The position numbers and the translations under genes are program-made. Positions 8,863 to 30,574 of a stretch of 64,000 bases of DNA are shown piece by piece (the first letter of the stretch is position 1; each line of letters starts with the position of its first letter). Where the stretch lies: positions 2,610,987-2,674,986 of the forward strand of contig NZ_CP101823.1 in the NCBI RefSeq assembly GCF_024498175.1, read 5' to 3'. This stretch comes from Haloplanus salinarum. Its GTDB lineage: Archaea; Halobacteriota; Halobacteria; Halobacteriales; Haloferacaceae. Under the pieces are notes generated by a model. It was not told where the DNA came from and ran no database searches. It saw only the letters and a list, made by a program, of their open reading frames with translations.

Positions 8863-8863
8863 C

Positions 8864-10042: not shown

Positions 10043-10124
10043 GTCATCGTCAGAACTAGGACAACCGATTTATATCAGGAATATAGATACTCAGACATGA
10101 TTCAGATAAACTTGGTGAGCCACA

Positions 10125-12296: not shown

Positions 12297-12343
12297 TCTG
12301 ATCCGAGTTCCTCAACTTTCGACCCTTGGGAACGGAATTGGTG

Positions 12344-12778: not shown

Positions 12779-12812
12779 CTATATTTGAGGAAGGACTCCA
12801 TTGAGAGACACA

Positions 12813-13523
12813 ATGAGCGAGGCGTGGTCGCGTGACGAACACCTGGTCGTCCTCAACGCGTATCTGAACGACGGTGTTGGATCCAACGATCCAGAAGCCC
12901 GAGAACTAGCGAATCAGCTTGACCGAAGTGAGGGATCTATCACGAGTCGGCTCGCAAATTATCGCAGTCTCGACTCGGACGGACCGGAGGGATTGTCGGG
13001 GATTTCTCAGTTGGGTCGTGAAGTCTGGAACGAGTTCCACGAAGACAAGGTGCGACTGGCCCGAGAGGCCGCAGTCGCGAAGGAGCGACTGGCCATCGGT
13101 GCCGACGAAGACGACGTCGTCAGGACATCCACGGGAACGTCGGTCACCGTCGTACGGCAGGGACAATCGAGGTTCCGCGAACGAGTCCGTGAGCGGTACG
13201 GTGGCGAGTGCCTCCTGTGTGGCGTCGACGATCCGAGTCTACTCGAGGCTGCACACGTCGTCAGCTGGGAAGCCGCCGGTGAGGATCGAGGCGATCCGGC
13301 TAACGGCCTTCTACTGTGCGGTACTCATCATCGAGCGTTCGACGAACATATCTTCACGATCTCCGAGGATTACACACTTGAACTCGATCCGGCGTTCGAG
13401 ACGGACAGTCGATTTCTCGAGCGGACTATCGTCTCACGAGACGGCGAGCGGATTGATTTCGGAGGAACACCTCCAGATTCGGAATATCTTGGGCAGCGGA
13501 ATGGAAATCAGCGCCTGTGGTAG
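12813..13523 (+). CDS. HNH endonuclease
   Basis: This 236-residue protein carries a C-terminal HNH nuclease. A zinc pair CLLC (about residue 131) is followed by LEAAHVVSW, giving the first catalytic His, then DPANGLLLCGTHHRAFDEH with the Asn, the second Cys pair member and the final His residues. The N-terminal 60 residues (SRDEHLVVLNAYLN, LANQLDRSEGSITSRLANY) form a small helical, HTH-like domain seen in haloarchaeal restriction-type HNH proteins. Start ATG 12813 is preferred over TTG 12801. It sits beside a truncated nuclease-like gene and after the AT-rich cargo, so it is probably part of a defence or restriction load. No methyltransferase is visible nearby. Confidence 0.85.
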   Translation: MSEAWSRDEHLVVLNAYLNDGVGSNDPEARELANQLDRSEGSITSRLANYRSLDSDGPEGLSGISQLGREVWNEFHEDKVRLAREAAVAKERLAIGADEDDVVRTSTGTSVTVVRQGQSRFRERVRERYGGECLLCGVDDPSLLEAAHVVSWEAAGEDRGDPANGLLLCGTHHRAFDEHIFTISEDYTLELDPAFETDSRFLERTIVSRDGERIDFGGTPPDSEYLGQRNGNQRLW

Positions 13524-13623: not shown

Positions 13624-13938
13624 TGCACCTCTCATTTTGCGCTGTTTCCTGTTCTGTGAGCGCTCTGCCAGAATCCCGATTCAACCGCGGAAGAGTACGT
13701 TCTGACTTGACCACGGGGGGTCGCGCGTCGACAAATCCGGCACCTCTGGTTTTGCACACGAATCACCCCGATACTCCGATCGCTCATATCAGAAAACAGT
13801 AACAAAGTGTGCAAATCGGGCCGGTCTCCGCGCCGATCACGCCGGAGGCCCGACCCCTCGATAGAGGAAGTATATAAACAGGCCACCGTTCAGCAACCTT
13901 AGCGAAACGACTAGGAGCCGGTGTGTGCAAAATCAGAG
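13624..13938. repeat. Operator-like repeats around the ribbon-helix-helix gene
   Basis: The 400 bases between the HNH gene and the 13925 gene hold no gene but several copies of a short word. CACCTCTCATTTTGC ends at 13640, CACCTCTGGTTTTGC ends at 13755, and the reverse complement GCAAAATCAGAG lies at 13927-13938 across the start of the next gene. Weaker versions are at 13580 (CTGATTTTG) and 13807 (GTGTGCAAATC). Spaced copies ending at the start codon of a small DNA-binding protein suggest autoregulation. A TATA-like AGTATATAAAC at about 13869-13879 is the likely promoter. The grouping is mine and untested. Confidence 0.45.
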
Positions 13939-14170
13939 TATGCGTATAAGAATGGACGACGAGCGGGAGGACCGACTCCGGCGACTCATGGAGAAAACCG
14001 GGGAGTCGACGAAGGCCGGCGCGATCGACGCCGCGATCAAACACTACCTGAACGACCTCGAGAACAAGCGGCGAGTCGCCGACGAACTCCCGACCGAGTT
14101 CATCGAGGAATTACACACGCCCTGGATGCCTCTCGAACGCGAGACGAACGTCGGACAAACCGAGGATTAG
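13925..14170 (+). CDS. Small ribbon-helix-helix-like DNA-binding protein
   Basis: This is an 81-residue protein. The segment MRIRMDDEREDRLRRLME followed by STKAGAIDAAIKHYLNDLE has the strand-helix-helix layout of Arc/MetJ/CopG proteins. A short C-terminal tail (ELHTPWMPLERET) follows. GTG 13925 has an AGGAG seven bases upstream, and the ATG at 13940 is an alternative that fits the RHH strand equally well. Its stop overlaps by four bases the stop of the convergent membrane-protein gene at 14167. Likely role: regulation of its own and perhaps the neighbouring operon, supported by operator-like repeats upstream. This type is common in haloarchaeal mobile elements. Confidence 0.7.
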   Translation: MQNQSMRIRMDDEREDRLRRLMEKTGESTKAGAIDAAIKHYLNDLENKRRVADELPTEFIEELHTPWMPLERETNVGQTED

Positions 14171-14460
14171 AAACCGGAAGCGACGGCGTCGGCGCCCATT
14201 TTGACGATAGTCTCGAATAGGTCCTGAACGAACGCGAGGAACGGACCAGGGTGCGGGTCGAGCCACCCGGCCCCGATCGCGACGGCCAGCACGACCAGGG
14301 AGACGACGACGTAGGTGAGCGTCGAGGCGGTGAGGGTGGCGACCGTCGTCGCGAGGCCAGCGCCCTTGTAGAGGTAGAGGGCGAGGACGACGAGGCCGGC
14401 CGCTCCCATGACCGAGCCGCCGACGCCGAGGGCCTCGAGGAGACCAAGGAGGAGACTCAC
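14167..14460 (-). CDS. Small two-helix membrane protein, last gene of the membrane operon
   Basis: This is a 97-residue protein starting at GTG 14460, which overlaps the stop of the large surface-protein gene (GTGA). Two clear membrane helices (about 19-37, GAAGLVVLALYLYKGAGL, and 47-66, TYVVVSLVVLAVAIGAGWL) are followed by an amphipathic C-terminal segment, FLAFVQDLFETIVKMGADAV. An N-terminal helix may also be membrane-bound. Being coupled to the 920-residue exported protein suggests the two products assemble together in the membrane. No family is recognised. Confidence 0.7.
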   Translation of the reverse strand: MSLLLGLLEALGVGGSVMGAAGLVVLALYLYKGAGLATTVATLTASTLTYVVVSLVVLAVAIGAGWLDPHPGPFLAFVQDLFETIVKMGADAVASGF

Positions 14461-17219
14461 GACCCTTTCACCACCACCGGCCGACCTCGGAACTGGTTGT
14501 AGGCCCACCACACGACGATGCCGACCGCCGCGATACCGGCGATCGGCCCGACCGATTCGATCACGTTCGCGAGCGCCGTGGAGACGCGACCGGAGTAAAA
14601 CTCGATGATGAGGAGTGCCGAGCCGACGCTCCCGATCCCGGTGATGAGGCCGCCGGGGAACGGCACGGCACCGACGAACGGGACGCGCACGCCCGTCGGC
14701 CCACCCACGCGCCGCTGCAGCACGTAGAAGCCGGCGGTAAGGACTCCCCAGGCGATCACGACGACGGTCGGCGACGAAAGAGGGTCGCCGGAGTCGCCTC
14801 CGACGTTCACCGGCCCGACCACACCACTATCACTCGAGACGACATCTTTCAGGAAGACGAGCGTCTCGGCGGAGTCGTCGTCGGTGAGGGTGAGCGGCGA
14901 GTTCGCCGTTCCGTCGTCTCGAACCACGTCGTTCGTCTTGGACTTGAGGACGTAATGCGTCGAGTCGGCGGCATCGACGAAAGTGAACTCGACGGTGTCT
15001 CCCTCCTGGTCGCCGGGACGCACGGAGAACTGCGGTTCTTGCGTTCGCGGCTCATCGACGGAGAGGCGCACCTCACCGCTCGACGGATTCACCGAGACGG
15101 GAATCGTCGAGATTCGCGCCTCGGCGCCGGCCGAGGCACCGGGCATATAGACGTAGTTGTAGCCGTCGGCGGAAATCTTCGAGTAAGGGTCGGCGTTCGA
15201 CCATGACTCTTTGTAGACGTAGTGAACGCGCCTCGAGTCGGGCGTGGCACCGACCGAGATATGAGCGTCGGTCGACCAGGAGTCGATGCGAATCTTCGAG
15301 TCGAGTCGCTCGCCTTTCACCGTTGGTTCGACCACGGTGATCACGCCGTTGATGACGTTGACTCGACGGCCGGTCGTTCGGACCTCGACGGTGTCGCCGC
15401 CGTTCATCGAGCCGAGGTCGACGGTGAGGGTCGTGTTCGAGAGGGAGTAAGACGATTGACTCACCGAGGACCACGTCCCGCCGTTAACTCGCTTTTCGAC
15501 GTTTTTGATGCCGACTACGTTTCCGGCGAACGGAATTGTGAGCGAGGCCGACGAGCGGTCGCTCGCGAACGTCTTACTCACGTTGTAGGATTCCGACCAC
15601 TTGTTCGCCGAGTAGTTCACCGACTGTTTGTCACTCGCTTCATGTCGGTAGTTGAGGTCGACCGACGCCGCCGGAGCATCGGAAGATAGCGACGCGTCGG
15701 CGACCGAGATATTGACGGTGTTGCTCGACTCGACCCACGAGTCGTTAGTTTCGAGTGAGGCCGTCGAGCCGTCTGCCAGAGTGCCGCCGTAACTCGTCGT
15801 GTGGCCGTTGACCGTGACGCTCGGATTTTCCGGAACAGTTGTCTCCTCATATGTCGCGGAGACATCGACTCCAAGGGACCGCCCGGAATACGAAACACCG
15901 AGCGATGTAGTTGAGAGGCTTATAGGGACGGATTTAGTGGCCGACTCGCCGGGGGCGAGGTCTCCGAACGGGACTGCGGACTCACCGGAAACCTCGGCAT
16001 TGAGAGCCGTCTCATGGGCTGCATATCGCAGATCCCCCGCCTCGTCGGTCGTACCAGGCCCTGTGGCTATTGCATTTTCAGGAGCCGATGCTGTTCTGAT
16101 ATAGAGTTTGTCCGTTGTCCCGTCGCTATCGGTTGATTTCGTGATAAACTCGATTTCATACGTATTCCCCGCAGATACGGAGTAATTGCTAATGTCGATT
16201 GTTTGACGGCCAGTCGACCATGACGGTTGCCATGTTGATTTAACTACCGTGCCCTCTCCGTATGTGGTGTCCGCGTTTCCTGGCGCAATCCTAATCTCAA
16301 CATCGGCATTGTAACTGCTCCCTGACGTGCTACTGATATTAGGCTTAAGAGTTGATATAGTTGCGTCCCTCTGTGGTTGAATCTCGATAGACGATGACTG
16401 TGTGTAATCTGGGCTATTATCCCCCACAAATTTTCTCAATCCCTTCTCAGAGGTTCCGATGGTCTCGTATGGATTGAACAAGTCAGATGCCGCGACCGTC
16501 ACAGTTGCGTCACTCGGGGGTTGGTTTCCTGCGACCGAGAGCGAGAGCGACGAGCCGGGAGAGACCCAAGAAGATTCCGTATCGTTTTCGCTCCGGCTTC
16601 TCCCGGTGACGTTGATCGAGAAGTTCGAGACGGAATCAATCGAACTCACGTCGTAGTTAACCGTCGACCCGTCGGTATAGGTGCCACTCACGGAGACCTC
16701 ACCGGAGAAGGTAATCGAGTTACTCGAGAAGTGCGGCACCTCGAAGACGAGCATCCCCGCATCGTACTCGACGGGCCGCGACCACTTCGAGCCGTCTTCG
16801 TGAGTGCCATACACGCGCTCGGGAGTGTAGCCGAGCGCGTCTTTCACGGCCTCGGCGCCAATCGCAACCCGCCGACCCTGCGAGTGGGTGTCGTCTTTGA
16901 GGACGAGCGTAAGGCTCCCGCTCGACCCGGCGACGGAGCCGTTCTCGAGATAGTCGCTCGCGCGATCGGGAGTCGTGACAATAACCCGGAGCGTCTCGGC
17001 GTGTTCGCTCGCCATGACGTTGCCCTCGAGGTGGCTCGCGTTGATCGGCGGGTTCGAGCCGACCGGCACATCTTCGCTTACGTTCGCGTCGGGAACGGTG
17101 ACCATGCCGCTCGGAACGGCGGCGGCGACGGTGACGAAGGGACCGGCGAGGCTCGCGACCAGGAGGACGGCGACGAGCACGTTCACCGCTCGCTCACCAC
17201 GACCGGTGAGGAACTTCAC
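14457..17219 (-). CDS. Large exported surface/spike-like protein with three C-terminal membrane helices
   Basis: This protein of about 920 residues has an N-terminal signal sequence (VNVLVAVLLVASLAGPFVT...AAA). A very long Ser/Thr/Asn-rich beta-type ectodomain follows, with many glycosylation sequons and repeated Ig-like phrases. After residue about 800 come three membrane helices (VVIAWGVLTAGFYVL; LITGIGSVGSALLIIEFY; IAGIAAVGIVVWWAY) and the basic end VVKGS. I chose GTG 17219 because it overlaps the upstream stop (GTGA) and has GAGGTGG in front. GTG 17228 would add three residues. In the element it is the best candidate for a receptor-binding spike or main envelope protein. A single C-terminal anchor is usual for spikes, so three helices are unusual. 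Confidence 0.8.
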   Translation of the reverse strand: MKFLTGRGERAVNVLVAVLLVASLAGPFVTVAAAVPSGMVTVPDANVSEDVPVGSNPPINASHLEGNVMASEHAETLRVIVTTPDRASDYLENGSVAGSSGSLTLVLKDDTHSQGRRVAIGAEAVKDALGYTPERVYGTHEDGSKWSRPVEYDAGMLVFEVPHFSSNSITFSGEVSVSGTYTDGSTVNYDVSSIDSVSNFSINVTGRSRSENDTESSWVSPGSSLSLSVAGNQPPSDATVTVAASDLFNPYETIGTSEKGLRKFVGDNSPDYTQSSSIEIQPQRDATISTLKPNISSTSGSSYNADVEIRIAPGNADTTYGEGTVVKSTWQPSWSTGRQTIDISNYSVSAGNTYEIEFITKSTDSDGTTDKLYIRTASAPENAIATGPGTTDEAGDLRYAAHETALNAEVSGESAVPFGDLAPGESATKSVPISLSTTSLGVSYSGRSLGVDVSATYEETTVPENPSVTVNGHTTSYGGTLADGSTASLETNDSWVESSNTVNISVADASLSSDAPAASVDLNYRHEASDKQSVNYSANKWSESYNVSKTFASDRSSASLTIPFAGNVVGIKNVEKRVNGGTWSSVSQSSYSLSNTTLTVDLGSMNGGDTVEVRTTGRRVNVINGVITVVEPTVKGERLDSKIRIDSWSTDAHISVGATPDSRRVHYVYKESWSNADPYSKISADGYNYVYMPGASAGAEARISTIPVSVNPSSGEVRLSVDEPRTQEPQFSVRPGDQEGDTVEFTFVDAADSTHYVLKSKTNDVVRDDGTANSPLTLTDDDSAETLVFLKDVVSSDSGVVGPVNVGGDSGDPLSSPTVVVIAWGVLTAGFYVLQRRVGGPTGVRVPFVGAVPFPGGLITGIGSVGSALLIIEFYSGRVSTALANVIESVGPIAGIAAVGIVVWWAYNQFRGRPVVVKGS

Positions 17220-17374
17220 CGCCACCACCTCGGGGGGGACCCCTGTAGCCTATCCGAGACGCGCGCGCGTAACAGGGAACGCGAGCGAGCGCGCTCGGAC
17301 TCGAGCGGGTGGTTCACAGAGTGGCCGATATTCGAGATTTTCTCGATATCGAGGCGATCGAGTCGATCACTCAT
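17216..17374 (-). CDS. 52-residue basic protein between ATPase and surface-protein genes
   Basis: The ORF begins at ATG 17374 inside the stop of the ATPase gene (ATGA) and ends at 17216, overlapping the surface-protein start. It reads MSDRLDRLDIEKISNIG, then an Arg-rich stretch (ERARSRSLLRARVSDRLQG) ending RWWR. The gap between its two neighbours would otherwise be unexplained, and both junctions have the coupling style of the operon, so I consider it real. The basic, arginine-rich C-terminus could bind nucleic acid or the inner membrane face. Function is unknown. Confidence 0.55.
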   Translation of the reverse strand: MSDRLDRLDIEKISNIGHSVNHPLESERARSRSLLRARVSDRLQGSPPRWWR

Positions 17375-18483
17375 CCTCTCACCTCGAGGTCGACCGAGAG
17401 GGTTCGGTCGTGGGGTGCCGGGATATCGTCCCACCGAACCTTTCGCTCGAAGTTCTGTTCCGTGAACGGGAGGCACTCGCCGATATCGTACCGGGAGGCC
17501 ATGTCGTTGTCCATCGGGACGGAGTCCATCCCGATCACGTCGTTCTTGCTGGTCGGATTCGCCGAGCCGGGCATCGAGATACGCCACCGGATTTTGTGAC
17601 GAATCAGGTTGTGAATGTCGCGTTCGGAGTGGCCGAACGCGAACAGGGAGAGGCCGTATTTGCGCGCGTCGACGAAGGTGTCGCGCAGGAGTTCGACCTT
17701 CTGGTAGGTGGCGAACTGGTCGGACCTCGCCGCCTCGGGAGCGATATCGCCGATTTCGTCGAGGATGAGCGACTGAAAGTCGTTCGGCCCCTTCTCGACG
17801 CGGGCGAGGACGTAGGCGAACCACCAATGATTCAGCGGGTCCTCTCGGTCGAACAGTCCGCGATCGTCGCCGGGCGCCTCGTAAGTCCGTTCGGGCGCCT
17901 CCTCGTAGACCCATTGGCACCCCTTCATGCGAGGGTCCGGGTAGAGAACATGGAACTGTCCGGGTTCGAGGAGTTGTCGGTTCACCTGAACGGGGTCCTC
18001 GTAGCGCTTCACCTCTCGGACCATGTCCTTGAGGTCGACCTCGAGGGCATCGTGGCGCGGGTTCTTGGGGACGAGTTCGGCGCTCACGTCGACGCCCTTC
18101 GGGACGAGCACGGTGGTCCACGGCGCGAGCGGGAGCCACTCCGAGCGACTCGTCGAGCCACGCCACACGACTTTCTCCTCGTTGACCTCGAGGAGTCGAA
18201 CCGACCAGGAGAGGCCGAACGTCGACTTACCGCAACCGGGTTTCCCTGTCGCGAGGAAGTCGGTACCGCCGGCGTCTTGGTTCCGGCCGGCGTCCCAGGT
18301 GTGTTCGAGGGCGTTCGGAACGACGTTCGGATACTCGAACGCCTCACGGTCGTAGGGAGCGATGCCGAACTCCTCACGCATCGAACGCGCGTCGGTCCAT
18401 CGGCCTCCCTGGCCGGTAGCCTGTTCTGTGTAGTCGATAGTATCGGTGAGATACTGGTCGGGGTCGTTCGCTTTGAGACTCAT
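17371..18483 (-). CDS. P-loop ATPase of the membrane operon
   Basis: This is a 370-residue ATPase. The Walker A motif GKPGCGKST lies at 80-88 and the Walker B-like SLILDEIGD at 238-246. Arg-rich segments (GHSERDIHNLIRHKIRWRIS) follow, as in HerA/FtsK-type and virus packaging ATPases. There are no membrane helices. It starts at ATG 18483 overlapping the previous stop (ATGA) and is followed by a 52-residue gene with the same overlap. It is the only energy-coupling enzyme in the operon, so it most likely drives DNA loading, particle assembly or transfer. Pleolipoviruses also carry one NTPase in the structural block, but I cannot establish homology by eye. Confidence 0.82.
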   Translation of the reverse strand: MSLKANDPDQYLTDTIDYTEQATGQGGRWTDARSMREEFGIAPYDREAFEYPNVVPNALEHTWDAGRNQDAGGTDFLATGKPGCGKSTFGLSWSVRLLEVNEEKVVWRGSTSRSEWLPLAPWTTVLVPKGVDVSAELVPKNPRHDALEVDLKDMVREVKRYEDPVQVNRQLLEPGQFHVLYPDPRMKGCQWVYEEAPERTYEAPGDDRGLFDREDPLNHWWFAYVLARVEKGPNDFQSLILDEIGDIAPEAARSDQFATYQKVELLRDTFVDARKYGLSLFAFGHSERDIHNLIRHKIRWRISMPGSANPTSKNDVIGMDSVPMDNDMASRYDIGECLPFTEQNFERKVRWDDIPAPHDRTLSVDLEVRG

Positions 18484-19274
18484 AGGTGTGCCCCCGTGGA
18501 GGGGTCTTTGTCTTCGTCGGGCTGTTCGCCTGCGCGGCCGACGAGGTCGCGCACGCCGCGATTGAACGCGGGCAGGAGATACGTGGCCGCGAATAATTCG
18601 CGGGCGCGCTCGTCGGCGCTCGCGTCGCTACAGAGCATCCGGCGGGTCGACGGTTCGACGTAGCACCGACGAACGAGGTCGCCGTCGACCTCGCCGTGAG
18701 TCGCGAGTTCCATGTCGCGACCCCACTCGAGGATATCGCGCGGCTCGTCGAAGCCGTCGAGCACGTCCTCGAGGACGGTCGACTGATTCTCATCGAGTTC
18801 GTCGACGGCCGGGCGCATGGCGATGAATCGCTGAACCTGGGGGTCGTGGCCGGAGGTCTTCGACTCCTGCGCGGAGTCGATGTATTCACCGGCGTCTTTC
18901 CGCAGGTGTCGGAGTGCGCGGTGGTAGGCCGGGGCGATCACAGTCGCGGCGAGGCGCTCGCGCAGCTCGTCGACGGTGCCGGCCTCGATGTCGCGGTCGC
19001 GAGCGGCAGGAACGAGCATCGCCGAGAGAAGCGCACGCTCGCGACTGTCGTCGAAGCGTCCTCGGAACTGTCGGGAGAGGTTCTCGATGAACGCCTGTCG
19101 AGTGCGGCCGAGTGTCCGCACGCAAAGGCGTTGCATCCAATCGAGCACGTCTCGGCGGCGTCGGAACCCATCGTAAAGCTCCGTCTCGAGTTGTTCGAGG
19201 TCGAGTTTGAGGCGGACGAGCGACGGTCGAACGAACTCGGTCGCGTCGCCGCCGGGGCGATCGGGCTTACTCAT
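18480..19274 (-). CDS. Helical soluble protein upstream of the ATPase
   Basis: This 264-residue protein has no membrane segment. It is rich in charged helices (LVRLKLDLEQLETELYDGF, RERLAATVIAPAYHRALRHL). Two halves look similar: each has a run ending LLSAMLVPA or LFAATYLLPAFNRGVRDL, preceded by an RRDVLDWMQ or RDILEWGRD helix. This suggests an internal duplication. The start ATG 19274 lies inside the end of the upstream gene (8-base overlap). Position next to the ATPase suggests an adaptor or a DNA- or membrane-associated assembly factor. No family is recognised. Confidence 0.72.
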   Translation of the reverse strand: MSKPDRPGGDATEFVRPSLVRLKLDLEQLETELYDGFRRRRDVLDWMQRLCVRTLGRTRQAFIENLSRQFRGRFDDSRERALLSAMLVPAARDRDIEAGTVDELRERLAATVIAPAYHRALRHLRKDAGEYIDSAQESKTSGHDPQVQRFIAMRPAVDELDENQSTVLEDVLDGFDEPRDILEWGRDMELATHGEVDGDLVRRCYVEPSTRRMLCSDASADERARELFAATYLLPAFNRGVRDLVGRAGEQPDEDKDPSTGAHL

Positions 19275-20877
19275 CGGCGGCCTCCTGGTCGTCGTCGGGG
19301 CCGAACTCGAAGGCGCTCCCGTCGACGGGGTCGCGGTCGCGGTTCATCGAGTCGGCGCCGTTCGTCGAGTGCATGGCCTCGATGAGCGTCTGGTCCTGAT
19401 CCTCGAGGGCGGCCTCGACATCTTTCTGATTCTTTGCCTTCTCTCGAACGCGCTTCTGCCGGGACTCCTGTAGGGTCTCGGCCTCGTCGGCCTCTTTCTG
19501 CAGATACATCGAGGAGATCCACGCCGACCGGAGGTGAGCGGGAGCCGGCTCGACGCGCGCATAGCCGTCGGTGGCGTCGAGGTAGAGGACGGCGCCGAGC
19601 ACGATCGCGCCGAGGGCGCCACCGACGCCGGCGAGTTGGCCGACGTAGTGGTTCAGGCCGAAGCCGGCGACGGCAGCCGCACCGAGGACTAAGAGCGGGT
19701 TCGCCGACCACTCGAAGCCCTCCGACTCGTACTTGAGCACGTCGTCGGCGTTCGGGGAGACGACGTAGAGTTCGTCGGCACTCCCTTCGGTATATTCGAT
19801 GCGGGTGTCGAGGTGTTCGTGGCCTTCGAGAGTCGCCGTCGAGCCGAAGACGCGAGCGAGGAACGCTCCGAGGCCTTTGCGAACCACCGCAATCTCCTCG
19901 TCGGGAGTTTTGATGATTCGCTCCGAGCGCTCGCGGGCCTTCCGCGCGTCTAAGGCGTGTTCGCCGGAGGCGTTGCGAGCCGCCTCCGGCTGCGGCTGGA
20001 TGAATCGAGCGTCGCTCACCCCGACCTCGTAGGTCTCGAGGACGACCACGCCGATCACGCCGATCGAAAAGGCGGCGATGATATGCGGGAGTTCGACGAA
20101 GACGGCGGCGAGGCTCCCGAACAGGGAGAAGACGCCGACGCCGGAGCCGATGAATATCAGGAACATCCACGGTCCGTATCCCCACATGGGACCGACGCCG
20201 GCGCGCTCGAGGGCGCGTTTGACGAGCCACCCAATCGCGAAGGCGCCGGCGAGCGTGGGCGCGATAAAGTCCTTCAAAGCGGAGATGAGGTAGTCTCCCT
20301 GGTCGTTGATGCCGGCACTCTGCGCATAAGGACTCGAGTGGTGAACGAGCGTCCATCGGGCTTCGTCGGGCGCCGAGGCGAGCCACATCGTCATGCGGAC
20401 GGGGTCCTGGTGTTCGGGGAGATCTATCTTCGCGGTCGGCCACCCCTTACCGAGTTGGACCTCGCGAGTGACGACGGAAACGTTCGCGGCGACGGTCTCG
20501 GTGGTGGTCCCGTTCTCGGTCTTCACGGTGCGGGTCTCTCGCTCCCAAAACGCGATTTTGACCGTGGCGGTCTTCGACTCTGAAGCCGTCCGAATCGAGT
20601 TCAGATAGACCTCGTCGGAACGGATAGTGTTGGTCTCGACGAGGTCCTTCTCGTCTTGCCACGGCTTCGAGGCCGGCGTGTGGGTTAACCAGTAGACGTG
20701 ACCGTCGGCGATGCGCGCGCTCGCCTTCTTGTAGTGGGTCCCGTCGCGAGCGAGTTCGTCGACGGTGAGGTCGTTCGAGGAACTCGACTGTGCGTCGACT
20801 CCCACGGCGAGGAGTGGCGCGGCGAGACTCACGACCAGGAGGCACCCGACGAAGACGGTGAACGCTCGGCGTTCCAT
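19267..20877 (-). CDS. Polytopic exported protein with signal sequence and cytoplasmic coiled coil
   Basis: This is a 536-residue protein. It has a signal-like N-terminus (about 1-29, ending VDAQ), an extracellular beta-type domain (about 30-205), and three membrane helices around 208-285 (including WMFLIFIGSGVGVFSLFG and AAFSIGVIGVVVLETY). A soluble domain (about 290-385) follows, then two more helices (NPLLVLGAAAVAGFGLN and GGALGAIVLGAVLYL), and a long Glu/Arg/Lys-rich tail (about 445-536) with coiled-coil character, ending DDQEAADE. GGAGGTGA stands six bases before the ATG. Both faces of the membrane are well occupied, so it could link an outer surface layer to the ATPase or to DNA. Function is not known. 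Confidence 0.78.
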   Translation of the reverse strand: MERRAFTVFVGCLLVVSLAAPLLAVGVDAQSSSSNDLTVDELARDGTHYKKASARIADGHVYWLTHTPASKPWQDEKDLVETNTIRSDEVYLNSIRTASESKTATVKIAFWERETRTVKTENGTTTETVAANVSVVTREVQLGKGWPTAKIDLPEHQDPVRMTMWLASAPDEARWTLVHHSSPYAQSAGINDQGDYLISALKDFIAPTLAGAFAIGWLVKRALERAGVGPMWGYGPWMFLIFIGSGVGVFSLFGSLAAVFVELPHIIAAFSIGVIGVVVLETYEVGVSDARFIQPQPEAARNASGEHALDARKARERSERIIKTPDEEIAVVRKGLGAFLARVFGSTATLEGHEHLDTRIEYTEGSADELYVVSPNADDVLKYESEGFEWSANPLLVLGAAAVAGFGLNHYVGQLAGVGGALGAIVLGAVLYLDATDGYARVEPAPAHLRSAWISSMYLQKEADEAETLQESRQKRVREKAKNQKDVEAALEDQDQTLIEAMHSTNGADSMNRDRDPVDGSAFEFGPDDDQEAADE

Positions 20878-21120
20878 CTACTCGGTCACCTCCTGGGGAA
20901 CGCGCCGGTCGAGGCTCCGATCGCCGGGCCGCCACCCGAACAGGAGTCGCACGGTGAGGCCGCCGGCGAGAGAGAGGGGGAGCGCCGCGATGCCGAAGGC
21001 GGCGACGCCACCGAAGACGAGCGCGAGCACGACGGCGATCGCGCCGAGGCCGAACAGGACGGCCGAGACGAGCACATACACGTCGTAGGCCCGGATGCGG
21101 GAGGGGTCATCGACGCTCAT
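20878..21120 (-). CDS. 80-residue two-helix membrane protein
   Basis: Two adjacent membrane helices (about 14-36, VYVLVSAVLFGLGAIAVVLAL, and 38-60, GVAAFGIAALPLSLAGGLTV) are followed by a short basic tail that ends VPQEVTE. The gene starts right after the upstream stop, preceded by GGAGGTGAG, and its stop abuts the next start (TAGATG). It is part of the uninterrupted run of small membrane proteins. I recognise no family. Confidence 0.7.
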   Translation of the reverse strand: MSVDDPSRIRAYDVYVLVSAVLFGLGAIAVVLALVFGGVAAFGIAALPLSLAGGLTVRLLFGWRPGDRSLDRRVPQEVTE

Positions 21121-21459
21121 CTACTCGCTCACCTCCCACCGATCGGACTCTTTGCTGCAGCTGTGGCAGGTGTGACCGGCGCGGAGGACACACACCGCCT
21201 GGTCGGCCCACTTCACAGCCACCGTGCCGGTTACTCCGACTATCGCAGCACCGAGTAGAGCACCGCCCGTAGACGTGCCGGGCTGCATGGTCGCGTAAGC
21301 GAATACGACAGCTGTCGCGAGGGCGGCGATCGGGGCGAAAACCTCGCGTCGAACGGCCGGATCACGGAGCGCCTCAAGGGCGCCGAGGTCACGACCGAGC
21401 ATATCGAGGTGTCGAGAGGTCTCCTCAGCGAGGGGGGCCTCCGTCTGAACGATCGTCAC
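21121..21459 (-). CDS. 112-residue membrane protein with C-terminal Cys knuckle
   Basis: An N-terminal soluble helix (LDMLGRDLGALEAL) leads to two membrane helices (about 40-58, FAPIAALATAVVFAYATM, and 64-83, TGGALLGAAIVGVTGTVAV). A C-terminal Cys/His cluster follows (VCVLRAGHTCHSCSKES), which could bind zinc or form disulfides. It starts at GTG 21459, which overlaps the end of the upstream gene by four bases and has GAGGTGAG in front. Function is unknown. Confidence 0.7.
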   Translation of the reverse strand: MTIVQTEAPLAEETSRHLDMLGRDLGALEALRDPAVRREVFAPIAALATAVVFAYATMQPGTSTGGALLGAAIVGVTGTVAVKWADQAVCVLRAGHTCHSCSKESDRWEVSE

Positions 21460-21800
21460 ACCGCCTCACCTCGCTCCCGGCGAGCGACGAACCAATGCAC
21501 GACGACGGCGAGGCCGAGCACGGCGCCGAAGGCGGTCGACTCGAGGACGAGCGGCCACGTAACGGCGACGAGGATGCCGGCGTACAGCATCGTGACGTGA
21601 ACCCCCGAGATAAGCACGGAGGCCGTCCCGGCGTCGGAGCGACTCGAGAGGGTGATACTCGGGTCGTCGTCGGTCGCGAACAGTCGGCCGTAGAGGGTAT
21701 AAGCGAGTGCGACACCGACGACGATCGCGACGGCGATGCGAACGGAGCGAAGTTGCTCGAGGAGTGGATCGACGGCGTCGATCGCGAGCGGACTAAGCAC
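21456..21800 (-). CDS. 114-residue membrane protein
   Basis: I chose GTG 21800 as the start because it overlaps the upstream stop by only eight bases. An in-frame ATG at 21836 would overlap by 44 bases. The protein has an N-terminal amphipathic helix (AVDPLLEQLRSVR), a membrane helix (IAVAIVVGVALAYTLYG), a soluble loop with DDDPSITLSSRSD, and two more helices (LISGVHVTMLYAGILVAV and AFGAVLGLAVVVHWFV) ending RRERGEAV. Topology suggests three membrane passes. It belongs to the run of small membrane genes. Function is unknown. Confidence 0.68.
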   Translation of the reverse strand: MLSPLAIDAVDPLLEQLRSVRIAVAIVVGVALAYTLYGRLFATDDDPSITLSSRSDAGTASVLISGVHVTMLYAGILVAVTWPLVLESTAFGAVLGLAVVVHWFVARRERGEAV

Positions 21801-22260
21801 GGGAGCCACCTCCCGAGTATCGTGCCCAAAGGACAAGGACGAACAGGAGTGTCGCGATCGCCGCGAAGATGACCGGGTCGGCCGGGATGAGGCCCTTGAG
21901 GCCGGCGAACGCGATGAGGCCGGTGATCGCTTGACCGAACAGGGCCGGCGCTTCGATCGCTTCGTTGAGCATCGAGCCGGTCATGAGCAACTGATTCGCG
22001 ACGGTGACGGTGATAGTGAGGACGACCGTGAGAAGCGAGCCGAAGGCCCCGATAGTGCCGCCGAAAAACGAGTCGGCACGGTCGCCGGCGCCTTCGATCG
22101 CCTCAGCGGTGTCGTTGGCGTCTCGATACTCGTCGAGGAACCAGTAGGTGAGGAGTCCCGTCGCCGCGAGGCCGATGGTTAGAACGAGGTTACCCCCAAA
22201 GGCTTCGAGGACGGTCCCGACGAGAGAGTCGAGCGGGCCGAGACTCACACCGAACGGCAT
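21793..22260 (-). CDS. 155-residue multi-pass membrane protein
   Basis: About four membrane helices are visible: NLVLTIGLAATGLLTYWFL, a central glycine-rich FFGGTIGAFGSLLTVVLTITVTV, FGQAITGLIAFAGL and PVIFAAIATLLFVLVLWARY. An acidic amphipathic segment lies between the first two. GAGGTGAA precedes the ATG by five bases. The C-terminal GLIPADPVIF... helix recalls the LGPxAxP helix of the three neighbouring genes upstream (22597, 23078, 23469), suggesting common ancestry. Function is unknown. Confidence 0.7.
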   Translation of the reverse strand: MPFGVSLGPLDSLVGTVLEAFGGNLVLTIGLAATGLLTYWFLDEYRDANDTAEAIEGAGDRADSFFGGTIGAFGSLLTVVLTITVTVANQLLMTGSMLNEAIEAPALFGQAITGLIAFAGLKGLIPADPVIFAAIATLLFVLVLWARYSGGGSRA

Positions 22261-22310
22261 GATTCACCTCGCGAGAGGGGTCGAGTCGTCTGATTGGTGG
22301 TGTCGGTCAT
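22245..22310 (-). CDS. Possible 21-residue overlapping peptide
   Basis: An ATG at 22310 overlaps the stop of the 22307 gene (ATGA). It opens a 21-codon frame that spans the 46-base gap and ends just inside the next gene. No Shine-Dalgarno precedes it. It may serve only to carry ribosomes across the gap to the strong GAGGTGAA site. Whether the peptide is a product is doubtful. Confidence 0.2.
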   Translation of the reverse strand: MTDTTNQTTRPLSRGESCRSV

Positions 22311-22600
22311 AGTCGGGTGTCGAGGTTCTGGTACACTCCGTACAGGAGTTTGGTGCCGTAGAGGACTCCCCCGACGACGGCCGCGATTTCGAGCGGCGCC
22401 GACGGAATGAAGTCGACTCTCGGGCCGAGCGTGAAGCCGCCGATCGACAGGACGGTGAACAGGCTCCCGGCTTTCGCCCACGCCACGGCGGCGAGGGCGT
22501 TGAATAACGGGAGGTTCAGGAATCCGCCGAGGACGGCGACGAGGCTCGACGCAACCGTGAGCGGATGCGCGATAACTCCCCGGAGCGTGAGTGCAGTCAT
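22307..22600 (-). CDS. 97-residue membrane protein
   Basis: Hydrophobic segments cover most of the sequence: LTVASSLVAVLGGFLNLPLF, ALAAVAWAKAGSLFTVLSIGG and PLEIAAVVGGVLYGTKLLYGV, so two or three membrane passes are likely. The ends are short and polar. The start ATG overlaps the stop of the upstream gene by four bases (22597-22600). It is part of the membrane operon. No family is recognised. Confidence 0.68.
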   Translation of the reverse strand: MTALTLRGVIAHPLTVASSLVAVLGGFLNLPLFNALAAVAWAKAGSLFTVLSIGGFTLGPRVDFIPSAPLEIAAVVGGVLYGTKLLYGVYQNLDTRL

Positions 22601-23091
22601 GAGTCGTTACTACCTCCGATATACTCGATTGCGAACGATGCGGCGGCGTCGAGGATGGACCCGATCACGGGAACGGCGCCGAGGGCGTCGCTCGCGGCGA
22701 CAAGTGCCGGCGGAATCGCCCGGATGACGAGCGCCACCTGCAGCACAATTACGCCGACGATAACGAACGGTGCCGCCGGCCCGAGAAGGTCCGTCGAGGC
22801 GCGGGCGATCATGAGGTTCAGATCGACCCAGCCGCCGACGACTGGCCCGACGATGCCCCCGATAGCACCGCCGAAGGAATCGGCCGCTTTCCGAATCGCG
22901 TCGGCGACGCTCGTGAGGGAGTCTCGGCCGACGGCGCCGGTCGCCGAGGCGAGGCTCGCGACGACGCCGACGATAAACGAGACGACTCGCTTGCGGATGA
23001 ATAGAGCCGGAGCGCTCCCGAACGCGATGAGAGTGTCGGCGTAGGGAGCGAGGTCTGATATCCAATCGGGGAGAGTGCTACTCAAGAGCAT
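22597..23091 (-). CDS. 164-residue membrane protein, member of a tandem family
   Basis: The N-terminal half has an amphipathic helix and FIVGVVASLASATGAV. A glycine-rich GGAIGGIVGPVVGGWVDLNL follows. The C-terminal half has LLGPAAPFVIVGVIVLQVALVIRAI and a final weakly hydrophobic helix. The LGPxAxP start of a membrane helix is shared with the products of 23078 and 23469. The start overlaps the end of the upstream gene by 14 bases. It probably arose by duplication with its neighbours. Function is unknown. Confidence 0.7.
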   Translation of the reverse strand: MLLSSTLPDWISDLAPYADTLIAFGSAPALFIRKRVVSFIVGVVASLASATGAVGRDSLTSVADAIRKAADSFGGAIGGIVGPVVGGWVDLNLMIARASTDLLGPAAPFVIVGVIVLQVALVIRAIPPALVAASDALGAVPVIGSILDAAASFAIEYIGGSNDS

Positions 23092-23422
23092 CCCTCCCGT
23101 AGACGGCGATCATGGCGAGGCCGACGACGATCGCGACGGCGGCCGGGAACGCGAGCGGGCCGAGGCTGGCCTCGCCCAAGAATCCGCGAGTGGTACGGTA
23201 GGCGAGGTCGAGCGCGTCGGTCGGGCCGGCAAAGAAGCCGGTAGCGAGGCCCGCAAGAACGTCGCGAGTCGCGTCGATCGGACTCCGCAGGAACGCGAAC
23301 AGCGCGCCGATGAGCGTTGAGGCTCCGGCGGCGAACTGCGCGCCGATATACCCGAGTGCGGCGGCGGCGAGGCGCTCGCCGTTGATGCTCGCGCCGTCGA
23401 CGAAGGGCGTCGAATCACTCAC
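23078..23422 (-). CDS. 114-residue membrane protein, member of a tandem family
   Basis: It starts at GTG 23422 after GGAGGTGTGA. The protein has LAAAALGYIGAQFAAGASTLIGALFAF as a first hydrophobic stretch, a middle amphipathic part (DALDLAYRTTRGFLG), and a last helix beginning LGPLAFPAAVAIVVGLAMIAV, then a short polar end. The pair of markers LIGALF and LGPxAxPA, about 50 residues apart, is also present in the 23469 product, so the two are probably paralogues. No known family is recognised. Confidence 0.7.
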   Translation of the reverse strand: MSDSTPFVDGASINGERLAAAALGYIGAQFAAGASTLIGALFAFLRSPIDATRDVLAGLATGFFAGPTDALDLAYRTTRGFLGEASLGPLAFPAAVAIVVGLAMIAVYGRDALE

Positions 23423-23468
23423 GGGTCACACCTCCGGCGAGCGTCGCTCGAGGTCGGCGCGTGTTGAA

Positions 23469-23909
23469 TCACTCCTCGTCCTCGTCGGTTCCGATGATCG
23501 GGAGGTCTGTGCCGGTGAACAGTCCGAGAATCGAGTCGGACGTGAAGGGCATTTCGAGGTACTGCAGTAGGAGGTAGATACCAGCGAGCACGGCGCCGAT
23601 CGACGCGGGATAGGCGAACGGGCCGAGGGCACCCCACACGCCGGTAAGGAACGCCTCGGTTGCGGCGCCTGAACCGGCGCCGATCACGTCGGCGCCACCG
23701 ACAACGAGGGCCAGAATGAACTGACCAAAACCGTCGATGAACGACGTTGTCGGGACGATTATCACGTCGAACAGGGCGCCGATGAGTTCGCTGGTCTTTC
23801 CGAGGAACTGCAGCACCGGGTAGATGAACGCCGCGAACAGGATTCGCTGAACGTTACTCTCCGCGATAGACCGTAGGGATTCGAGCGGCGGGCCGGGAGT
23901 TTCTGCCAC
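23469..23909 (-). CDS. 146-residue membrane protein, member of a tandem family
   Basis: GTG 23909 is preferred as the start because GGGGGT lies seven bases upstream. An in-frame TTG at 23915 is only one base from that site. The protein has IQ/NVQRILFAAFIYPVLQFLG, ELIGALFDVIIVPTTSF, FILALVVGGADVIGA and a final LGPFAYPASIGAVLAGIYLLL helix, then an acidic end (GTDEDEE). It shares LIGALF and LGPxAxPA with the 23078 product. The gene follows the large exported protein by about a dozen bases. Function is unknown. Confidence 0.7.
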   Translation of the reverse strand: MAETPGPPLESLRSIAESNVQRILFAAFIYPVLQFLGKTSELIGALFDVIIVPTTSFIDGFGQFILALVVGGADVIGAGSGAATEAFLTGVWGALGPFAYPASIGAVLAGIYLLLQYLEMPFTSDSILGLFTGTDLPIIGTDEDEE

Positions 23910-23921
23910 GCTCAATACCCC

Positions 23922-25349
23922 CTAAATCAGCCCTTTGATGCGGCCCCAAATCCCACCGAGGGCGGCGATGATGCCGCCGATGATCGGGATGTTGACCCCG
24001 CCACCGGAATCCCCCATCGGGCCACCGACCACGCCGGCCGATTCGATCGCGTCCCTCTCGTCGCCGGTGACGAGATATTTCGCGTGGACGGCGATTTTCT
24101 GGCCGGGCTGAATGGTGGTGTCGAGCGAGACCTCGTCGCCTTCGTTGTCGAACATCGAAGTCGAGTCGGACCACGTCGAGATATCTCCGAACTCGGTGTC
24201 TGAGACGCCTTCGGCGGTCTCGACGGCGAGATACCGGTTCGAGGGGAGTTCGGTCTCGGCGACGAGTTCGGCGTTCGAGTAGGACAAGTCGTAGGCCGAG
24301 GGGAGTTCGAGCCGATAATAGAGATTCACACGGTCGGAGAAGGACGGGTAGCCGTCGGCGGCGGTGAAGTTAACCGAAACGTCGGAGGTACCGAGGTCGG
24401 CGGTGCGGAACTTCACCGGCATCGTGAGGCCGTGAATCGACCCCTCGTCGAGCGCGTCGGAGAACGTCGAGAGGTCGTCGATCGCGATCGTGCCGGTCGT
24501 CTTGTGTTCGGTGACGGTCTCGGTCTCGAGGTCGTCATCGTCGTCGGTGTCGACCTTGCGTTCACCGAACGACCACGTCGACATCTTCTCGACGTTCAGG
24601 GCGGTGAGGGTCACGTCGCCGGTGCCGCCGACAAAGTGAATCTCGACGGACTCGATGTTGTCGAACGTGCCGTCTCCGGCGGTGTTCGTCGCCATTTCAC
24701 CGAGTTGCCGCTGGTAGACGTAGCCCTCGCCGGTGCCGGTCGCGATCACGTCCTCGTCGAGAGAGGCCGAGCCGTTGATGCGGGCCGTCTTGTAGTCGCC
24801 GTCGGAGTCGACGACGCGCACTTGTACCTCGGCGCCGCTCCCGAGGGAGTTCACGTCGAGGACGAGCTGCAGGTAGCGGTTCGGCTCGTCGGAGCCGACA
24901 GAGAAGTTCGAGTAAGTTGCCGAGTCACCGGCCGCCGAGGCACTCACGCCGATCGCCTCGACACCGGCGGCCGGTTCGGTGTCGCTCACCGTGGCGCCGT
25001 TCGCGGTCCACTCGCTCGCGTCGAGTCCCGACGCGGAGTTGTTAGACTCGTCGGATTTGCGCGGGAACTCGCCGAGTGCGGCGGCATCGAGGTCACTCGC
25101 CTGAAACTCGAACGTGTTGTTTGCCGAGTCGTTCAGGGTTCCGGGTAGTGTTGCCTGGGTCCCGTCGTCGGCTTCGTAGGTGAGCGGAGAGTCCCAGGAG
25201 AGTTGATGCACGTCCTTCGTTACGTCGGCCTCGAGGCGAGCGCCCTGCGTGTAGTCGCTCGAGGAGTTGACTTGTGCCATCGCTGCGGGTGCGACCGCCG
25301 ATACCAGGAGAAGGGCGACGAGGCCGATCGCGGGGAGGCTACGTCGCAC
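23922..25349 (-). CDS. Exported 475-residue surface protein with hydrophobic C-terminal tail
   Basis: It starts at GTG 25349, about ten bases after GGAGGTG. The signal peptide is clear (LPAIGLVALLLVSAVAPAAMAQ). The mature part is acidic and beta-rich (SDEPNRYLQLVLDVNSLG, DVTLTALNVEKM), with sequons (NSS, NGS, NFT). The end is unusual: a Gly-rich linker and about 20 hydrophobic residues with Pro, Gly and Trp (IPIIGGIIAALGGIWGRIKG), more like an amphipathic or fusion-type helix than a classical anchor. It is the first long gene of the operon and one of two candidates for the main particle surface protein. No family is recognised. Confidence 0.78.
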   Translation of the reverse strand: MRRSLPAIGLVALLLVSAVAPAAMAQVNSSSDYTQGARLEADVTKDVHQLSWDSPLTYEADDGTQATLPGTLNDSANNTFEFQASDLDAAALGEFPRKSDESNNSASGLDASEWTANGATVSDTEPAAGVEAIGVSASAAGDSATYSNFSVGSDEPNRYLQLVLDVNSLGSGAEVQVRVVDSDGDYKTARINGSASLDEDVIATGTGEGYVYQRQLGEMATNTAGDGTFDNIESVEIHFVGGTGDVTLTALNVEKMSTWSFGERKVDTDDDDDLETETVTEHKTTGTIAIDDLSTFSDALDEGSIHGLTMPVKFRTADLGTSDVSVNFTAADGYPSFSDRVNLYYRLELPSAYDLSYSNAELVAETELPSNRYLAVETAEGVSDTEFGDISTWSDSTSMFDNEGDEVSLDTTIQPGQKIAVHAKYLVTGDERDAIESAGVVGGPMGDSGGGVNIPIIGGIIAALGGIWGRIKGLI

Positions 25350-25443
25350 GGTCGTCGAGCACCTCCTGGGGCGCGCGGAGATAGTCGTCGTGTTCGATAC
25401 GTCGATCGGCCACCCGGATGCGGGTGGGGGGTTCGCCGGTCAT
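25339..25443 (-). CDS. 34-residue first gene of the membrane operon
   Basis: The ORF runs from ATG 25443 to TAG 25339 and overlaps the start of the 475-residue protein. It encodes MTGEPPTRIRVADRRIEHDD, then a short helix ending APQEVLDDRAT. The CAGGAGGTG that codes for QEV is the Shine-Dalgarno of the next gene. It may be a genuine small soluble protein or a leader that couples translation. The order (promoter, this ORF, exported protein) supports it being translated. Confidence 0.5.
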   Translation of the reverse strand: MTGEPPTRIRVADRRIEHDDYLRAPQEVLDDRAT

Positions 25444-26421: not shown

Positions 26422-28161
26422 CTACCTCGGCGGGCCGAACTCGCGGATTCTCACGTCCTCCTCGTCGCGCCGGTGATCGGGCGACTCGAGTTCATGCTCG
26501 AGGTCGAGGAGGTTACCCTCCCACTCCGAGAGGTAAACGAACTCGCCGCGATCGCCGTCGGCGTCCTCCTGGTCGTCGGCGCGTTCCTCCTGGTCGCCGT
26601 CGCCGGCGTCGCTCGACGAGCCGCACCCGTTCGCCTCGCCGTTCTCGCGCGCCTCCTTTCGCTCGCGAGCACGTTCTTCGCGACCGAGCCGGCGCGCGGA
26701 GATAGTCTCCTCGTCGAAGTGGGGGGCGATTTTCGAGTCGATTAACTCCGAGACCTTCTCGTAGAGGTAGTCGGCGTCGAAGGCGATGATCGCGGGGTTC
26801 CCGACCGTGACCAGGAGGCCGAGGTCTTTGAGTTCGCCGACGTGATACTCGATATTCGACCTACTGTAGCCGGTAGCCGAAATGAGTTGCTCGTACGTAG
26901 CGCCGTAGTTCTCACAGATAATCGAGAGGATATCATACTGCGCGTCGGTCTGATACTTCATCGCCGCCGACCAAACGACCGGCTCGAAGCGGCTGTAGAA
27001 GCGACGAAGGTCCTCGCGACGACCGTCGGGGTGAGCGACCTCGACGGTCGGCTGTGTGCTCGGCTTAAAGTAGTCGTCGGCGACAAGGTCACCGTCGTCG
27101 ACGCCGGCCCACTCGAGGTGAGAGAGGACGAGCCGACGGAGCGACTTGAGTGTAGAGTCCCACTCGGAGAGGTGAGCCGTCGAATCGCCGGCGAGACTCG
27201 CCTCGAGCTTCGGATGGTGAAGTGGGTCGTCGCGAGAGCGGTCCTCCCAATCGGTCGCCTGGTAGCACTTGAGTTCTCGAGAAAGACGTTTTGTCGTCTC
27301 CTCGCCGTCCTCGATCGCGTCGACCTCGAGGGCGTCGAAGCCGAGCCGGTCCCACCGATCGGAGGTAATACGGGCTTCCATCCACCCGGCCTTGTCTCGG
27401 CGTTTCCAGGTCTTCACCTCGGCGCCGCCGCCCACGTCGATGAGGTTCTCGCTCTTATCGAGGCACAGTTTCACCGGATGTTTCTCGTCGATATCGAACC
27501 GGACGTGAGTCTCGAGCTTGAAGATGCGCGCCGAGTCGGCTTTCATATCGCCCACGTCGACGAGGTCGGGGTCGCCACCGAGGCGCTCGAGGGCGTCGGA
27601 GAGGCAGGTAAAGAGCCGGTCGATCACCTGGCCGGAGCGCTCGACATACGTCGTTCGGATTCGGAGACGAGTGCCTTCACCGTACGGAATCGAGTAGTCG
27701 TTTCCGTCCTTGTAGGTGAGGTCCTCCGCCTGGGGCTGAATATCAATCGAGCACGACGTAGGGGGTTTCTTGAGTTCCTCCTCACCATCCTCGTCGGTCT
27801 CACGACGTTTCAGCGTAAGCTTGTATTCGTACCATTGTTTCCACTCGCCGGCCGAGTTCTCTTTACCAGCTGTCCATCCGCTCGATTTAAAGACCCAAAC
27901 GTAGTCTCCGTCGGGGAGAAAGTCGGGGTCGGCCTCGACAATTTTCTCGCCGCCGGCCTCGCCGATCACGTCGCGCCACACGTCGCGACGGGAGTGGTTG
28001 TAGAGTTCGAGGCCGTCGTCGAGCACGACCGAGACGCCGACACCGTGAGTGATCGAAGCGGTCCGTCGAATCTTCGTCGCCGTCGAGCCGCTTTCGAGGT
28101 CCTGGGGAACCACGTCGGCGCCGAACTCGCCGCTCGCGAGGGATTCCGAGTCGAAGCTCAT
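26422..28161 (-). CDS. Large winged-helix protein, candidate replication initiator
   Basis: This 579-residue protein has no membrane segment. The N-terminal 200 residues are strand-rich. A middle part contains many conserved-looking Trp and charged residues. A winged helix lies at about 410-470 (YDILSIICENYGATYEQLI, YSRSNIEYHVGELKDLGLL). After that comes a long charged tail with Arg/Glu helices and an Asp/Glu-rich stretch. It starts at ATG 28161 overlapping the stop of a small zinc protein. Large proteins of this kind (some annotated DUF7845) recur on haloarchaeal plasmids and proviruses. Being the longest gene of the early-type operon and ending next to the repeat patch, it is my candidate for replication initiation. 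A transcription factor is the alternative. Confidence 0.6.
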   Translation of the reverse strand: MSFDSESLASGEFGADVVPQDLESGSTATKIRRTASITHGVGVSVVLDDGLELYNHSRRDVWRDVIGEAGGEKIVEADPDFLPDGDYVWVFKSSGWTAGKENSAGEWKQWYEYKLTLKRRETDEDGEEELKKPPTSCSIDIQPQAEDLTYKDGNDYSIPYGEGTRLRIRTTYVERSGQVIDRLFTCLSDALERLGGDPDLVDVGDMKADSARIFKLETHVRFDIDEKHPVKLCLDKSENLIDVGGGAEVKTWKRRDKAGWMEARITSDRWDRLGFDALEVDAIEDGEETTKRLSRELKCYQATDWEDRSRDDPLHHPKLEASLAGDSTAHLSEWDSTLKSLRRLVLSHLEWAGVDDGDLVADDYFKPSTQPTVEVAHPDGRREDLRRFYSRFEPVVWSAAMKYQTDAQYDILSIICENYGATYEQLISATGYSRSNIEYHVGELKDLGLLVTVGNPAIIAFDADYLYEKVSELIDSKIAPHFDEETISARRLGREERARERKEARENGEANGCGSSSDAGDGDQEERADDQEDADGDRGEFVYLSEWEGNLLDLEHELESPDHRRDEEDVRIREFGPPR

Positions 28162-30548: not shown

Positions 30549-30574
30549 CACGCCGTCCACCCCCGATTTCCTTC

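Follow-up and report, generated by a model that had tools for sequence, protein, structure and literature searches.

We analyzed a 64,000-nucleotide stretch of Haloplanus salinarum chromosomal DNA (contig NZ_CP101823.1, positions 2,610,987 to 2,674,986; hereafter, the window) and identified in it a tightly packed minus-strand operon, running from 25349 down to 14167, that is the core of a 24.5-kb mobile unit (approximately 6.2-30.7 kb) whose insertion site is the 3' end of a tRNA-Ala gene (Table 1). The genes were numbered along the minus strand from g01, a proposed leader of 34 amino acids (aa), to g16. An earlier sequence-only reading had counted about 16 overlapping genes here; the packed operon is where that reading placed it, but about 14 of the genes are supported (g02 to g16, leaving aside a 52-aa basic open reading frame, ORF). 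Neither the leader nor the 52-aa basic protein was supported as a gene. The leader, which runs into the start of g02, has a ratio of nonsynonymous to synonymous substitution rates (dN/dS) of 1.48 against the closest relative, and the 52-aa ORF is poorly conserved, with 41 alignable codons and a dN/dS of 0.55 in the same comparison. The remaining products largely match those proposed before: an exported protein of 475 residues with a signal peptide and a hydrophobic C-terminal end (g02), a run of small multi-pass proteins (g03-g10), a polytopic protein with a signal sequence (g11), a helical protein (g12), a Walker ATPase (g13), a spike-like protein (g15) of 923 rather than 920 residues and a last protein with two helices (g16). 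The conserved set thus comprises two large proteins that are exported and about nine that reside in the membrane. Three of the small membrane proteins (g03, g04 and g05) are mutually paralogous. Two others (g08 and g10) are weakly supported, rare among the relatives and accessory; g08 is missing from the closest relative and g10 has a dN/dS of 0.97.

Iterated profiles recovered the trio g11, g12 and g13, always in this order, from 39 distinct loci of haloarchaea, the majority with further genes of the g02 to g16 set around it (Table 1). In 28 of the 39, a gene encoding a DUF7845 protein adjoins the operon. The recurrence is far beyond chance and the operon is real. Furthermore, dN/dS values of 0.08-0.27 against the closest relative for g02, g03, g11, g12, g13 and g15 show that most operon genes are intact and under purifying selection. 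Scans of the element proteins against Pfam and PHROGs revealed no portal gene and, as the sequence-only reading had held, no capsid, terminase or tail gene, and the sole structural match in PHROGs (0.0026 to a tape-measure profile) was spurious. A tailed virus or prophage remnant was therefore rejected for want of PHROG or Pfam support.

Two proteins, g02 and g15, are the predicted surface proteins of the operon. The AlphaFold2 model of g02 (mean predicted local distance difference, pLDDT, 84.6; predicted template modeling score, pTM, 0.79) has an all-beta ectodomain. Among solved structures, Foldseek ranked the turret of HFTV1 (Haloferax tailed virus 1; E 1.3e-5, 161 columns) first and enzymes bearing carbohydrate-binding modules (CBM) next, and the matches among viral structures included minor tail proteins and, again, the HFTV1 protein. 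This model suggests that g02 may bind surface glycans. The g15 model is multi-domain and beta-rich, with lower confidence (pTM 0.44), and with a model this weak no significant structural match and no fusogen was returned. In several loci, the g15 slot is taken by unrelated large proteins with PKD, PQQ or WD40 propeller ectodomains. One such family (L029 and L031-L033) includes a form with beta-propeller and carboxypeptidase-regulatory domains; a second carries PKD domains, with a PQQ propeller in L035 and a weak match to the g15 profile in L034. The swapping of exposed domains would be the behavior expected of a host-recognition spike and resembles the variable N-terminus of the ORF6 spike of plasmid pR1SE (PMC10818511).

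Table 1. Features of the mobile unit in the window (positions are those of the window; locus counts are out of 39; TM, transmembrane).
Feature	Position	Strand	Description
Att-like copies of the tRNA-Ala 3' end (n=3)	6181-6199, 6234-6252, ~6329-6343		Direct repeats
Tyrosine integrase	6396-7409	-	SNJ2/HRPV-9/Halfgib1/Humcor2 integrase family; Pfam and NCBIfam recombinase matches
Winged-helix repressor-like gene	8569-8862	+	phrog_2440, 2.3e-31
Second repressor-like gene	8831-9202	+	phrog_2440, 2.1e-28
Cargo region	9209-13523	+	Missing from 16.5-kb episome
Cargo: TM protein	9209-10042	+
Cargo: two AT-rich genes	10125-11381 and 11382-12296	+
Cargo: HNH endonuclease	12801-13523	+
RHH81	13925-14170	+	81-aa ribbon-helix-helix-like protein; also in 16.5-kb episome
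g16	14167-14511	-	114 aa, two TM helices; 24 loci
g15	14457-17228	-	923-aa spike-like protein: signal peptide, long beta ectodomain, C-terminal TM anchors; 33 loci
52-aa basic ORF	17216-17374	-	Proposed gene, unsupported
g13	17371-18483	-	370-aa P-loop NTPase (Walker ATPase); phrog_22963, 2.9e-14
g12	18480-19274	-	264-aa soluble helical protein
g11	19267-20877	-	536 aa: signal peptide, several TM segments
g10	20878-21120	-	80 aa, two TM; weak
g09	21121-21459	-	112 aa, two TM
g08	21456-21836	-	126 aa, three TM; accessory
g07	21793-22260	-	155 aa, three TM; 31 loci
g06	22307-22600	-	97 aa, three TM; 33 loci
g05	22597-23091	-	164 aa, three TM; g03/g04 paralogue; 38 loci
g04	23078-23422	-	114 aa, two TM; g03/g05 paralogue; 37 loci
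g03	23469-23915	-	148 aa, three TM; g04/g05 paralogue; 37 loci
g02	23922-25349	-	475-aa exported protein: signal peptide, all-beta ectodomain with CBM-like domain, C-terminal hydrophobic end; 30 loci
g01 (34-aa leader)	25339-25443	-	Proposed gene, unsupported
Replication protein (DUF7845)	26422-28161	-	579 aa; homologue of HRPV-3 ORF9 / HGPV-1 ORF14
59-aa CxxC protein	28158-28337	-	Stop overlaps Rep start (ATGA)
168-aa CxxC protein	28334-28840	-	Rep cassette
86-, 225- (zinc ribbons) and 193-aa genes	28866-30560	-	Between Rep cassette and tRNA
tRNA-Ala (CGC)	30728-30800	-	ARAGORN and Rfam; 3' end is the attachment site; repeat at 30727-30745

Boundaries, Mobility and Cargo of the Element

The sequence-only reading had confined the element to 14167-25443, limits that proved too narrow for the mobile unit, to which integrase, repressor, replication-cassette and cargo genes also belong. 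In a near congener, Haloplanus ruber, the site is empty: the flanks lie 0.6 kb apart, the tRNA-Ala gene is intact and no element stands between them. Further, a congener (G003) carries a 16,546-bp contig with g02-g07, g09-g13, g15, g16, the DUF7845 gene and its neighbors, and nothing else of size. The ends of this contig fall inside g09, which continues across them apart from an offset of one base, so the contig is most probably circular. The circle has no integrase, and the copy in the window is about 8 kb larger: its extra DNA holds the integrase, two phrog_2440 genes and an AT-rich cargo region that encodes an HNH endonuclease. The same congener has a second, chromosomal relative (L022). 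The mobility of the element is thus well supported. The three copies of the tRNA-Ala 3' end at 6181-6343 are partial and fall within 160 bp, two of them inside a repeated unit of about 53 bp, which suggests repeated integration events at the site.

Between the closest copies (window versus G003:C3, L016), the synonymous divergence (dS) was 0.14-0.25 in the Rep cassette and 0.42-0.94 in the larger operon genes; the lower values of the cassette would point to recombination or exchange between modules. The two adjoining cargo genes at 10125-12296, encoding proteins of 418 and 304 aa, have a GC content of 43% against 65% for the genome and gave no convincing match in Pfam, PADLOC or NCBIfam; they are likely recently acquired cargo, possibly with a role in defense. 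The neighboring HNH endonuclease matched the HNH model of PADLOC (1.8e-39) and, below threshold, a family of restriction enzymes for phosphorothioated DNA.

Links to Pleolipoviruses and Distribution in Haloarchaea

Adjoining the operon but outside the interval first described is the DUF7845 gene, whose link to betapleolipoviruses the sequence-only reading had missed. In hidden Markov model searches, its product matched ORF9 of HRPV-3 (6.6e-65) and ORF14 of HGPV-1 (4.1e-63), and the profile-profile comparison with pleolipovirus replication proteins (Rep) gave a probability of 100%. Two papers present this protein as the putative betapleolipovirus replicase (PMC5974055, PMC10599561). In a tree of 33 Reps (26 from elements and 7 from pleolipoviruses), the pleolipovirus proteins formed one supported group among those of the elements. 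The 59-aa gene upstream of Rep encodes two CxxC motifs and overlaps the Rep start at an ATGA, an arrangement that one of these papers describes for the Rep genes of betapleolipoviruses and plasmid pL6 (PMC5974055); a simple scan recovered a comparable overlap in 11 of 27 element Reps. This protein family carries the label "transcriptional regulator" in PHROGs (phrog_15150) and DUF7845 in Pfam (PF25227); annotation pipelines will overlook such elements.

The integrase and the repressor-like genes have similar affinities. In phmmer searches, the integrase matched those of SNJ2 (4e-85) and HRPV-9 (7e-81), with a range of 7e-61 to 4e-85 that includes Halfgib1 and Humcor2. By their annotation, HRPV-9 and SNJ2 carry repressors of the general phrog_2440-like kind. 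The operon itself contributes the nucleoside triphosphatase (NTPase) g13, which aligned with pleolipovirus VP8-type NTPases in profile-profile comparison (95.5%, E 1.5e-8) over 115 columns spanning Walker B, a K-x-G motif, a GH-x3-D motif and the C-terminal part. In addition, when 391 genomes were scanned with the g13 profile alone, all six of the weak matches examined (columns 250-319) were NTPases in pleolipovirus-type blocks, each with the complete order spike-ORF6-ORF7-NTPase; the remaining weak matches lay at Walker A. From these alignments, g13 is a remote homologue of the VP8-type NTPase rather than a member of the same family. Rep, integrase, repressor-like genes and NTPase are four independent parts that point the same way, and we regard the element as related to pleolipoviruses in its replication, integration and NTPase, with a distinct morphogenetic set.

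Searching genome contigs with the NTPase profile retrieved 31 loci, all haloarchaeal except for one record named Rhizobium. One contig of that record (Rhizobium sp. S152, L039) bears a Halobaculum-type element that matches Halobaculum DNA almost perfectly, and the public genome record is without doubt contaminated. Of 391 genomes drawn evenly from the class, 77 had an NTPase match at 1e-3, 8 of them weak only and 69 strong (approximately 18%, a figure that counts the NTPase and not complete elements). Two genera, Haloarcula and Halosegnis, have copies on circular plasmids: pNG300 in Haloarcula marismortui and, in Halosegnis, a plasmid with PolB and Cdc6 genes. An MCM helicase gene adjoins or lies near the NTPase gene in six loci (L027 on pNG300, L024, L052, L017, L051 and L056), also where Rep is present. 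The chromosome of Halobaculum litoreum holds two near-identical copies (L037 and L038) close to the two ends of the record, and several genes of the second were read as fragmented.

Nature of the Element and Comparison With Known Systems

Taken together, these genes make it probable that the element is an integrated, temperate relative of pleolipoviruses that buds DNA-carrying membrane particles with a morphogenetic set of its own; the formation of the particles, their loading with DNA and their entry are inferred from the genes. An active element would excise at attP as a circle, which Rep would replicate while the operon is expressed. The membrane proteins (g03-g11 and g16) could then gather in the membrane of the host and mold it into a vesicle, and g13 could act as a motor for assembly or DNA loading. 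On the particle's exterior, g02, through glycan binding, and g15, as a long and exchangeable spike, would recognize the S-layer of the next host. Exit would be by non-lytic budding. The net result would be a pleolipovirus-like element in which a larger morphogenetic set has been swapped in for the VP3/VP4 pair.

Several observations weigh against this interpretation. We compared the operon families by hhalign with the pleolipovirus spike, VP3, ORF6, ORF7, NTPase and Rep and with apHPV families, the pR1SE-like plasmids, and repeated the matrix in local mode; only the Rep and NTPase matches stood in both. No operon protein matched any of 14 pleolipovirus spikes in the profile-profile comparison, nor was there a fusogen among the 50 best PDB matches of the confident g02 model. 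No VP3-like protein was matched by sequence in the operon, using profile-profile comparisons and for a class of short TM proteins that diverge fast, and g12 scored a probability of 0.1% against 14 pleolipovirus ORF7 proteins. Because no VP4-, VP3- or ORF7-like protein was detected, the predicted entry mechanism would have no known counterpart. The Walker A half of g13 falls outside the NTPase profile alignment and, apart from the NTPase, the operon appears to have no tie to known virion proteins. Rep, integrase and repressors are found on plasmids too, and some relatives, with MCM and ParA-like genes, are plasmid-like in look. Finally, the NTPase profile found no relative in IMG/VR and tblastn none in 50,697 phage records, so no particle of the group is known. 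With VP4 and ORF7 not found, membership of Pleolipoviridae in the strict sense was rejected. The match of g11 to HRPV-1 ORF6 (2e-4; 74% in the first matrix and 39% in local mode) is a lead only, as the local alignment covers mainly the signal peptide and TM region.

The sequence-only reading had also offered pR1SE as a model, and an apHPV plasmid or derivative, packaging itself in host-derived vesicles with plasmid proteins and with no virus ancestry, would share with the element a large C-terminally anchored spike whose head is exchangeable, an ATPase and numerous membrane proteins (PMC10818511). The MCM genes and circular plasmids of some relatives fit this account as well, as does the weak match of the g11 N-terminus to an apHPV protein (ORF23; 72% in local mode), although the latter was rejected as homology because its 52 columns, the first of the profile, are mostly signal peptide. 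We used as references two plasmids, pHTUR05 and pHALXA03, which have an S8 peptidase after the large protein, the described apHPV order. Among the element proteins scanned there was no S8 serine peptidase family (apHPV ORF7), and none matched the ORF6 spike, ORF21 or the VirB4/HerA-like ATPase ORF25 of either plasmid. With none of these apHPV core genes found against the two reference plasmids, and Rep and integrase of pleolipovirus type, a pR1SE-type plasmid was rejected and we hold this origin to be very improbable. What stood of the earlier proposal is the pleolipovirus side, through Rep, integrase and the remote homology to VP8; VP3, VP4 and the pR1SE-type core were not found.

A cell-bound surface machine of a plasmid, serving conjugation-like DNA transfer (mating) or adhesion rather than forming a particle, is another structure that many small membrane proteins, one ATPase in the cytoplasm and long adhesin-like surface proteins might make up. 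This is unlikely: Pfam scans of the element proteins revealed no relaxase, VirB4 or VirD4 domain, the g13 NTPase is nearest to those of pleolipoviruses, and a 16.5-kb episome with little beyond the operon and Rep has a virus-like economy. The clear homology to conjugation or tailed-virus modules that the sequence-only reading had named as its refutation did not turn up. The difference in dS between the Rep cassette and the larger operon genes, in turn, could reflect a decayed or chimeric remnant, in which an unrelated plasmid operon came by chance to neighbor a cassette for replication and integration of betapleolipovirus origin. We give little credence to such an accident, given that Rep adjoins the operon in so many loci, that the episome holds both and that most operon genes are intact and under purifying selection.

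A bolder and still tentative proposal would be that the elements constitute a group of new family rank in haloarchaea, made up of enveloped viruses or of elements carried by vesicles. They would combine the replication, integration and NTPase modules of pleolipoviruses with a membrane coat of several proteins and a fusogen or entry route other than VP4, and would occur in about one sixth of haloarchaeal species, overlooked in virus catalogues. VP4 has been described as the hallmark of pleomorphic viruses of archaea (PMC10919331). A widespread group with pleolipovirus genes for replication, integration and NTPase but no detectable VP4 would show the wholesale replacement of a particle module and would offer archaea a second way to DNA-carrying membrane particles. 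Such a group would also account for many haloarchaeal operons of "hypothetical proteins," including that of pNG300.

Betapleolipoviruses (HRPV-3, HGPV-1, SNJ2 and HRPV-9) share with the element the Rep and the CxxC gene that overlaps it, an integrase of the SNJ2 type acting at a tRNA gene, phrog_2440 repressor-like genes, a small circular genome, a remotely homologous NTPase and a signal-peptide protein upstream of it. They differ in having VP4, VP3 and ORF7, of which no homologue was found in the element, and in a spike of about 500 aa against 923; the element is larger when integrated (24.5 kb) and exceeds them by about 11 genes for exported or membrane proteins, a surplus that the sequence-only reading had noted. 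The apHPV plasmids, like the element, are haloarchaeal and combine many membrane proteins and an ATPase with a large spike whose variable ectodomain includes propeller forms, but the S8 peptidase, ORF6, ORF21 and ORF25 have no homologue in the element, which has replication and integration genes of pleolipovirus type instead. The pL6-family plasmids of Haloquadratum have a betapleolipovirus-type Rep with an overlapping CxxC gene, and differ as small cryptic plasmids of about 6 kb for which the relevant part of the source reports no membrane-protein operon (PMC5974055). The nearest lead in the literature is Halfvol2 of Haloferax volcanii, a circular provirus at a tRNA-Ala gene with ten TM proteins, possibly lipid-enveloped, whose circular DNA was present in a virus stock and which was termed a novel virus group (PMC7911831). 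By description, it shares the tRNA-Ala site and the many TM proteins. The Haloferax volcanii control genome, however, had no phrog_22963 match at 1e-5 (window, 3e-14), which argues against the membership of Halfvol2 in the NTPase group of the element. The proposed Epsilonpleolipoviruses have an unusually large spike and ORF6 (PMC10599561). We found no description of this group as one in the open-access literature searched. The element appears distinct in its morphogenetic set and would offer a concrete handle on the relationship between vesicle-borne plasmids and pleomorphic viruses.

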